From a virus: 20,141 nucleotides of DNA. The notes beneath the pieces were generated by a model, which was not told where the DNA came from, did no database searches, and worked only from the letters and a program-made list of their open reading frames with translations. Each line of letters starts with the position of its first letter. The first letter of the stretch is position 1. Below are positions 3,473 through 20,141 of this stretch, one piece after another. The position numbers were made by a program, and so were the translations under genes. Location of the stretch: the IMG/VR virus record IMGVR_UViG_3300046616_000113, positions 1 through 20,141 of that record. One strand, given 5' to 3'.

Positions 3473-4503
3473 CAGACGGACTCGTAGGAGCCGGTGATGC
3501 GGACCTGGGAGCCGCTGGTCATGGTCTCCGGCACGCCCTGGCTGTGGAAGGCGAGCCGGCAGTCGCCCGACGAGGGCGGGAAGAATGTGGAAATGCTGGT
3601 CGCGGTCGGCGAGATGACGGTCTGTCCTGCCCACCGGTTCGTGCCGAGCAGCTGGGCGACGCCGATCATGCTGGCGCCGAGGTTGGCGGCCGCGAAGGGC
3701 GGCAGCGTCCAGTTGTAGTTGCCGGACCCGTATGTGGTGGTCGACCCGCAGGTGAGGTTGATATGGAAGATCACCTGGCGGCCGATCTTCTGGTAGCGGC
3801 CAGCCAGCGTCCCGTTCCCGGGATTCGGGTTGGTGGTGGAGCCGGTCCACACCGGCGTGTAAGGCGTCCAAAGGCCCGGCACCTTGTAGTACGTGTCCCA
3901 GGAGGATCCGTTCCAGCGCAGCAGGTCGGTGCCGTTGTCGTAGAACTGGCCGATGTACGGAGTCGAGGGCGCGGTCGCGGTGGGCAGGATGCCGCCCGGC
4001 GCAACCGTCGTCGGCCGCACCGTGGTGGACACCGAGGCGGTGCCGCCGTTGGACACCGACAGCACCGTGATGTTGGCCAGTGGCATGTAGATCTGCGTGC
4101 CCGCCGGGGTCGGCGCGACCGGCGACGCCGACGGGGTGCCCGCCAGGTAGACCACGTCTCCCTTGGCCAGGCCGGACGCGTCGACCGTGTTGTCCCACAC
4201 CCGCAGATAGACCAGGTCGACCCTGTTCAGGGTGGCGTGCGCTGCCGTGTACGTGCCCGGGGACGTGGACGTCGGGAACGCCACCCGGTACACGCCCTGG
4301 CCGCTGTAGGCGACCGCGGCCACGCCCGCCGAGCAGTTGATCGTCGTACCAGCCAGCGTGACCGTGAGGCCCGGGTCGCCGGGACGGACGCCCGAACGGG
4401 AGCCGAGCGCGGTCCCGTCGGTCATGACCGACAGGGCCTCGACGTTGCGGGCCTCCAGGCCCGAGAAGGTGAGGCCGTCGATTGCCCATACGTCTACTGG
4501 CAT
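3472..4503 (-). CDS. Receptor-binding tail fibre-like protein
   Basis: The product has 343 residues. The first 190 or so form a Gly/Thr/Val-rich domain of the type that anchors fibres to the tail tip. A DNGTDLLRWNGSSWDTYYK segment (about residues 189-207) is a motif common in phage fibres, often found at domain borders. The last 130 residues, with GRYQKIGRQVIFHINLT, GSTTTYGSGNYNW and a final VRITGSYESV, resemble beta-sandwich C-terminal heads of Streptomyces phage fibres. The ATG at 4503 is preceded by GAGGAGG, which itself overlaps the Dit stop. The gene is placed between Dit and the Tal-like gene, whereas Tal usually follows Dit directly. It probably determines adsorption to the host surface. 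The receptor is unknown. Confidence 0.8.
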   Translation of the reverse strand: MPVDVWAIDGLTFSGLEARNVEALSVMTDGTALGSRSGVRPGDPGLTVTLAGTTINCSAGVAAVAYSGQGVYRVAFPTSTSPGTYTAAHATLNRVDLVYLRVWDNTVDASGLAKGDVVYLAGTPSASPVAPTPAGTQIYMPLANITVLSVSNGGTASVSTTVRPTTVAPGGILPTATAPSTPYIGQFYDNGTDLLRWNGSSWDTYYKVPGLWTPYTPVWTGSTTNPNPGNGTLAGRYQKIGRQVIFHINLTCGSTTTYGSGNYNWTLPPFAAANLGASMIGVAQLLGTNRWAGQTVISPTATSISTFFPPSSGDCRLAFHSQGVPETMTSGSQVRITGSYESV

Positions 4504-19761: not shown

Positions 19762-19990
19762 ATCGATCACTCCAACTAGCCGCGTTGCGCGGCGAAAACG
19801 CCGTCACCTTGCGTGACAGCGGAGCATGATCACCTAGGCTCTGAACCTGGCAAACCTGGGAGCCACCTCCCCGGCGGTCCCCCGTGGATCTTGATCTGGG
19901 GGTCCCTCCCCAGGGTGATCATGGCCTTCGTGACTGACCGTGATGATCACCGGGAGCCTGGGAGCATCGCCGGCCAGAGCCGGCCACTGC
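19762..19990 (-). other. Non-coding repeat-rich region, candidate packaging site
   Basis: This 229-base stretch has no credible gene. It holds three copies of GGTGATCAT: minus at 19826-19834, plus at 19914-19922 and minus at 19943-19951. It also holds two tandem AACCTGG (19844-19850, 19853-19859), two CCTGGGAGC (19855-19863, 19957-19965), and a direct repeat GCCGGCCA (19969-19976, 19979-19986). A hairpin with CTGGGG/CCCCAG lies at 19896-19913, and CGGCG-AAAA-CGCCG at 19790-19803, just upstream of the small terminase. Being next to the small terminase gene suggests a cos or pac site. No convincing promoter was found. Confidence 0.55.
19896..19913. repeat. Inverted repeat in the candidate packaging region
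   Basis: CTGGGG (19896-19901) and CCCCAG (19908-19913) form a perfect six-base stem around the loop GTCCCT. There is no T-run on either strand, so it is not a good intrinsic terminator. It lies directly beside the central GGTGATCAT copy and may help a protein recognise the region. Confidence 0.6.
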
Positions 19991-20141
19991 CTACCAGGTG
20001 TAGATCGCGTCGCCGTCCTGGTGCCGGTGCTCGTGCTCCGGGGTGCCGGGCGGCAAGTCCGGGTCGGCAGCCGGCTGGGCGCACGTCAGGTGAGCCAGGG
20101 TCGGCAGGAAGTGCGGCGCACCGCACAGCGGCCTCTCCTTG
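19991..20141 (-). CDS. Unrecognised protein, C-terminal part only
   Basis: The last 49 codons of a gene that enters from the right edge are visible, ending TAG at 19991. The part seen includes CGAPHFLPTLAHLTCAQP, an acidic Pro-rich piece and a His-rich end (EHEHRHQDGDAIYTW). Two Cys and several His could bind a metal, but the start is missing and no family is recognised. Codon bias (third position G/C) supports coding. It is the last gene before the terminase operon. Confidence 0.55.
   Translation of the reverse strand, partial: KERPLCGAPHFLPTLAHLTCAQPAADPDLPPGTPEHEHRHQDGDAIYTW

Follow-up and report, generated by a model that had tools for sequence, protein, structure and literature searches.

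The gene-free stretch next to the small terminase gene of an uncultured phage contig is very probably the cos site of a Streptomyces-type siphovirus, with a predicted cut, a predicted small-terminase word and a TGATCA array in the roles proposed below. The window is the entire IMG/VR contig of 20,141 nt. An initial annotation had read a repeat cluster here as a candidate cos or pac site. Its cos half stands on fixed ends, isolate junctions, a conserved cut element and the HNH and terminase flanks, and its pac half is disfavoured by the fixed ends. Conservation among relatives had been set as a test that could refute the proposal; the comparison was run and the region is conserved.

Gene content and likely host

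The minus strand encodes the small terminase (TerS; 19770–19291, 159 aa), the large terminase (TerL; 19304–17676, 542 aa), a portal, a head maturation protease, a major head protein, tail genes and an endolysin. TerS matches phrog_226 (4e-20), and its relatives in AGM phages and Tiff81 are annotated as terminase small subunit. PHROG 226 is labelled "minor tail protein" whereas its members occupy the small-terminase place; the label is copied in several RefSeq records. TerL matches phrog_19179 (1.2e-147) and phrog_9 (2.2e-39). The 3′ end of a small gene lies at 19991–20141 (minus strand). Nothing is encoded between its stop codon (19991–19993) and the TerS start (19770), so the description of the stretch as gene-free was correct.

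The five relatives examined beyond this stretch (L003, L005, L006, L008 and L010) encode an HNH endonuclease (phrog_589) across it from the terminase. The small gene lies between the HNH gene and cos in the nearest relatives, in the order HNH, small gene, cos in L003 and L005 and with aligned versions in L003, L006 and L010. The HNH gene itself falls beyond the window end and was read from L003 and L005. Gene order by comparison is HNH–small gene–cos–TerS–TerL–portal, the HK97-type arrangement with an HNH gene adjoining cos and TerS and TerL opposite. PHROGs matches were obtained for TerS, TerL and the HNH protein; Pfam (E ≤ 0.001) gave no match for these three or for the small gene. A DNA-level similarity search of phage records with the window found no match, nor did Rfam and tRNA scans of it. 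The host is probably Streptomyces or near kin, because close TerL relatives sit in Streptomyces genomes (4 of 7 loci, 77–84% identity); the rest are in Actinomadura, Micromonospora and Actinoallomurus. Close TerL homologues are encoded by prophages of Streptomyces sp. or43, S. nymphaeiformis SFB5A and Streptomyces sp. JH14.

The predicted cut

The initial annotation named no cut position. We place it at a 9-nt element at 19868–19876, which reads CGCCGGGGA|GGTGGCTCCC on the minus strand. The minus strand is predicted to be cut between 19868 and 19867 and the other strand 9 nt away, so that this element (cosN) would yield the 3′ overhang 5′-CGCCGGGGA-3′. Positions below are counted from the cut, negative toward the HNH gene and positive toward TerS. 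The placement follows from the genome ends of AGM1, Isolde, Dubu, Kromp and phiSASD1 and from a pile-up of contig ends. The window junction is ACCGCCGGGGA|GGTGGCTCCC. The AGM1 record ends join as ACCGCCGGAGA|GAGC, with the last 9 nt annotated as cos-site, and those of Isolde as ACCGCCGGTGA|GGTGGCTC. Dubu (AACGCGGGGGA|GGGCTCT) and Kromp (ACCGCGGGGGA|GGGCTCT) both have the overhang CGCGGGGGA, and the phiSASD1 record starts with CGCGGGGGAGGGCTCT. The available parts of the published reports give 3′ overhangs of 5′-CGCCGGTGA-3′ for MidnightRain (PMC10871062), CGCGGGGGA for Nyceirae (PMC5255912) and 9 bases, CGCGGGGGA, for Eugenia (PMC11682537). MidnightRain and Nyceirae are among the TerL matches of the window.

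Isolde/MidnightRain-type Arthrobacter phages, Gordonia Nyceirae, Brevibacterium AGM and Streptomyces Dubu, phiSASD1 and Kromp share the junction, the gene order and a homologous TerL with the window, whose predicted overhang is one or two letters from their 9-nt 3′ overhangs. The core GGACCGCCGGGGA|GG is near-invariant in relatives, with 12 of the 13 positions from −13 to −1 at 1.6–2.0 bits. The predicted position and polarity of the cut are supported by these comparisons.

Contig ends in relatives

Where virion DNA is sequenced, part of the contigs is expected to stop at the cut. Eight of 25 distinct contigs with the window-type TerS begin exactly at +1, counting contigs that start at most 250 nt upstream of TerS, with those beginning inside TerS excluded and identical starts collapsed. 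One of the eight (L004) is identical over its first 80 nt to the left arm of a close relative. L014 and L076 start 1–2 nt before +1, and L033 starts at −1 by a weak alignment. With a second TerS type, 13 of 26 contigs begin exactly 16 nt before TACGG(G/A)T, which is the same register, even where the cut bases differ. These 26 come from 29 loci beginning within 357 nt of, or inside, TerS, after exclusion of L325, L339 and L348, which begin inside it. A uniform-start binomial, a crude model of contig starts, gives 7e-14 for the window type and 6e-27 for the second type.

Right ends could be compared with continuing sequence in two cases only. G001 (L133) ends in ...GGAGGAC, where its read-through relative (L135/L195) goes on with CGCCGGGGA, and the end of G003 (L149) falls on the equivalent nucleotide of its own junction. 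As the 9 nt are missing from left and right contig ends alike, they are read as 3′ overhangs trimmed by end repair; a filled-in 5′ overhang would show on both sides. Left starts and the two checkable right ends agree with a 3′ overhang of about 9–12 nt, the polarity reported for MidnightRain and Nyceirae in the parts of those papers cited above. G002 and G004 end about 22 nt past an inverted repeat described below and have no read-through relative; in each of these single linear records, TerS and an HNH match occupy opposite ends, and both give the appearance of complete linear genomes. The right end of G005 lies elsewhere, and the left end of G007 seems recessed by about 9 nt. Genome ends are fixed in the relatives, which supply all of the end evidence; the window's own contig reads through cos, to about 265 nt beyond. 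The G003 record (L092/L149; 90,552 nt) begins 36 nt ahead of the cut, stops directly in front of the 9-mer and carries a terminal repeat of 27 nt.

The cut also marks a mosaic boundary. The window and L186, which has the second type of the word described below and the second-type TerS, are 91.2% identical over the 250 nt up to the cut and 51.1% at +11 to +100. The corresponding values are 96.4% and 61.1% for L196/L135, and 87.2% and 56.7% for L151/L138. Near-identical right arms are thus joined to unrelated left arms and terminases, which puts the exchange point at the cut itself. On these alignments, the core is the exchange point where a right arm with its HNH gene and a left arm with its TerS gene reassort, and signals around the cut seem to be swapped as modules between phages.

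A predicted small-terminase word at +15 to +29

The predicted small-terminase binding site is the word TTGCCAGGTTCAGAG at +15 to +29 (19839–19853, minus strand). It is the most conserved part of the left arm, varies with TerS type and lies in the register of the HK97 footprint, the +15 to +29 segment that HK97 TerS needs according to the available part of PMC11331095. Removal of in-gene matches to the core pattern (left arm starting GTGGAC or GCCG) left 90 of 116 distinct sequences as cos sites, two of them untyped. With near-duplicates collapsed, mean information in the 39 window-type sequences is 1.20 bits at +15 to +29, 0.86 at +1 to +14 and 0.32 at +30 to +44; the 27 second-type sequences give 1.56, 0.92 and 0.42 bits. 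GGGTTCAAA occupies this register in AGM1 and Isolde, and the second type typically has TGTACGGGTCTGGGA.

Among the 88 typed sites, the window-type word is paired with the window-type TerS in 53 and the second word with a Kromp-type TerS in 24; another 4 combine the second-type word with a weak (E about 1e-4) window-type TerS match, and no TerS match was obtained for 7. Word type therefore agrees with TerS type in 77 of the 81 loci that have a TerS match. This association could be plain linkage, the two being neighbours.

The TerS N-terminus is conserved (GGARxRSGPxPDP) yet predicted to be disordered (AF2 residues 1–30, pLDDT 48–66). Of 55 window-type loci, 53 contain the motif GG(A/H)..SGP and the remaining two have short DNA; with any of three frames allowed over 2 kb, 4 of 33 second-type loci give a loose match as well. 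The AF2 model of TerS has a mean pLDDT of 78 and no clear PDB match: a PDB sequence search with the TerS profile gave 0 matches, and Foldseek with the model found none at E ≤ 0.001. VIA-align of the model returned only rows with Z ≤ 2.6, in which the best phage TerS (44RR gp16, Z 2.3) was taken as uninformative. The +15 to +29 word is probably the TerS target.

Hairpins in the TerS leader

Two hairpins lie between the word and TerS on the minus strand. Hairpin 1 (GTCAC-GCAAG-GTGAC, 19803–19817) and hairpin 2 form a tandem with a spacing of 24 nt in many relatives. Hairpin 2 (GCCGC-GCAAC-GCGGC, 19779–19793) is just upstream of the TerS ribosome-binding site, and its stem is kept by compensatory changes. 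A GC(A/G)AN loop occurs at hairpin 2 in 53 of 67 distinct relatives, again with compensatory changes in the stems. The hairpins look like an RNA leader element and not part of cos, because a hairpin of this kind directly precedes the TerS start in relatives with a later TerS (e.g., L145 and L182). At L071:8093 and L116:8165, a different late gene has a GCAAN-loop hairpin and then a second small hairpin immediately ahead of its start codon, which suggests a repeated start-associated element. A leader peptide from an ATG in R3 (described below) was dropped; by eye, relatives do not preserve its reading frame. Extra DNA or a gene separates cos from TerS in L021, L034, L070 and L141, and in L021 and L070 the word and a TGATCA site remain at the cut.

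Flagged repeats and the TGATCA array

All of the repeats listed in the initial annotation are present where it had placed them. GGTGATCAT has three copies in the 20,141 nt, all in this stretch, at 19914–19922 (plus) and, as ATGATCACC, at 19826–19834 and 19943–19951. CCTGGGAGC occurs at 19855 and 19957, with a further copy at 3504. Its inner copy (GCTCCCAGG; 19855–19863, minus strand, +5 to +13) is variable among relatives, with low conservation, and its outer copy (19957–19965, minus strand) was not seen as a conserved feature. AACCTGG starts at 19844 and 19853. The inverted repeat CTGGGG-AGGGAC-CCCCAG (19896–19913) directly adjoins the central GGTGATCAT copy, as had been noted. The cut element, the word, both leader hairpins and GATCAAGATC had not been listed.

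The repeats by themselves are only moderately unusual against chance. A 9-mer present three times within 220 nt arose in 0.65% of 2000 first-order shuffles, and elsewhere in the contig 10 of 355 stretches of that length contain one too. Nor does the count of repeated 9-mers stand out (P = 0.10; 69 of 355 stretches). The case was therefore decided by comparison with relatives. The claim of an organised array in place of chance matches draws support from the phased TGATCA sites in relatives and little from repeat statistics.

TGATCA is a palindrome, the same word on both strands. It was observed 84 times in the right 150 nt of 83 cos sites (4.5 expected) and 29 times in the left 60 nt (1.4 expected), and it is 40-fold denser near cos than elsewhere (14 loci). 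In 69 non-redundant sites, GATC centres cluster at −51 to −49, −28 to −25, −22 to −20 and +38/+39. The −51 to −49 site is typically CATGATCACC, and the +38/+39 site is its reverse complement, GGTGATCATG. On the minus strand of the window, these correspond to R1 (CATGATCACC, 19914–19923), which is the central flagged copy, and to its inverted partner R3 (GGTGATCATG, 19825–19834), also flagged. R2 (GATCAAGATC, 19887–19896) lies between the inverted repeat and cosN and belongs to the largest GATC peak of the array (−28 to −20). The third flagged copy, the outer CGGTGATCATC (19942–19952, minus strand), is weakly phased in relatives, with 10 GATC centres at −79/−78 among the 69 sites.

R1 and R3 are perfect copies in the window, and their midpoint (19874) is 2 bp from the cosN centre (19872). 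Both match at 8 or more of 10 positions in 16 of 41 sites of the window type and in 3 of 28 of the second type, where chance would give about 2% per site; the inverted pair is common, not universal. In 69 of 83 relatives, the final 80 nt of the right arm contain a GGG-N-CCC counterpart of the inverted repeat, which in most cases begins at −49 to −42. The array was looked for at the cos sites of Dubu, Kromp, AGM1 and Isolde, where, unlike in the window, it is absent, and it is therefore not needed for cos function in general; the phiSASD1 right arm has one ATGATCAT. The initial annotation had described the spot as one where actinophage terminase recognition sites are usually found. The GGTGATCAT copies themselves flank the cut, and the small-terminase word has a better candidate than these.

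No Dam-type methylase (PF02086, PF05869) was found among 20 relatives, some of whose records are fragments, and PF01555 matched in 1 of the 20. A methylase hypothesis for the GATC sites is not favoured on this evidence. The literature searched described no partner protein for a phased TGATCA array and nothing on such an array.

Comparison with known packaging sites

The site resembles HK97 cos in having an HNH gene on one side and TerS on the other, a 3′ overhang, predicted here, and its most conserved word at +15 to +29 (HK97: available part of PMC11331095). The HK97 right end, GACCGCCGCCAAA, resembles the actinophage GGACCGCCGGGGA; in the last 120 nt of the HK97 record (L289), GACCGCCG is common to that end and the actinophage core, by chance or common descent. 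The HK97 overhang is 10 nt and that predicted for the window 9 nt, and the HK97 word CTAACCCGATTTTTT is unrelated to the window word. The TerS N-terminal arm is modelled with low confidence here, and the HK97 arm orders only on DNA. The available part of PMC11331095 describes no phased TGATCA array for HK97, whereas the window has one.

Like lambda cosQ-cosN-cosB, the site combines a modular cut, downstream TerS sites and an upstream element. Lambda overhangs are 12 nt and 5′.

Proposed mechanism and alternatives

In the cos reading, the terminase would make two nicks 9 nt apart and leave 9-nt 3′ overhangs of CGCCGGGGA. A TerS ring would read the word at 19839–19853, probably by its conserved, predicted-disordered N-terminal arm (GGARxRSGPxPDP), and place the TerL nuclease on cosN, aided by the HNH protein encoded just across the cut. 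Least certain is the role of the TGATCA sites at about −50, −21 and +38 and of the CTGGGG/CCCCAG repeat at about −44, which may bind a second factor, such as the HNH protein, TerL or a host DNA-bending protein. This factor might bend or mark cos, like cosQ or the accessory sites of other phages. A tentative extension, which we consider possible but doubtful, is a lock with two keys. One key would be the TerS word, which would exist in two or more versions, each fitted to its own TerS N-terminal arm, and would be exchanged together with TerS by recombination at cosN. The other would be the inverted R1/R3 pair together with R2. These sites lie for the most part on the HNH side, and a factor other than TerS would read them, perhaps depending on methylation as at P1 pac.

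A pac site is very improbable; in that reading, TerS would bind the TGATCA repeats and initiate headful packaging, and the ends would be imprecise. P1 is the model for it, and P1 packaging is headful. The available part of PMC10028697 describes seven TGATCA/G hexamers in P1 pac, and the several TGATCA hexamers at the packaging cut here are strikingly alike. That source also places P1 pac inside the pacA gene and under Dam regulation; the site in the window is intergenic, and no Dam-type gene and a single PF01555 match were found in the 20 relatives, some of them fragments. The variable second end of P1-type headful packaging is not seen either: ends in the relatives are fixed to one nucleotide on both sides, the same as the defined ends of the isolates. 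We give as little weight to the idea that the ends are assembly breaks at a recombination hot spot, with the core kept as a recombination target or integrase attachment site and not as a packaging cut. Arms are clearly reassorted at the core, which would break assemblies, and contig ends could in part come from such breaks at the mosaic boundary instead of physical ends. Isolate genomes start and end at the core, however, contigs from divergent phages begin exactly 16 nt before TACGGGT even though their core sequences differ, and G002 and G004 are single linear records with TerS and HNH at opposite ends.

A less remote alternative, though still unlikely, accepts the cos site and takes the flagged repeats as late-operon operator or promoter elements, with a regulator at TGATCA and no packaging role. 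In its favour, the first late gene has this stretch as its leader, with two conserved hairpins ahead of the TerS start. Most of the phased sites, however, are separated from the operon by the cut and belong to the right arm, which moves together with the HNH gene, and where extra DNA precedes TerS (L021/L168 and L070/L170), the word and R3 stay with the cut. A cos site with a probable packaging role for the word and, least certainly, a possible one for the array is the reading that we retain.

Implications

For a large group of uncultured Streptomyces-type phages, a vague repeat cluster is replaced by a genome-end prediction at single-nucleotide resolution and a 15-bp predicted small-terminase target. 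Natural swaps of the left arm and TerS against a constant right arm provide ready pairs for testing which word and which part of the protein determine packaging specificity; for HK97, structural work has answered this question. If the lock with two keys is real, swaps at the cut would let phages re-key their packaging specificity while their ends stay unchanged.
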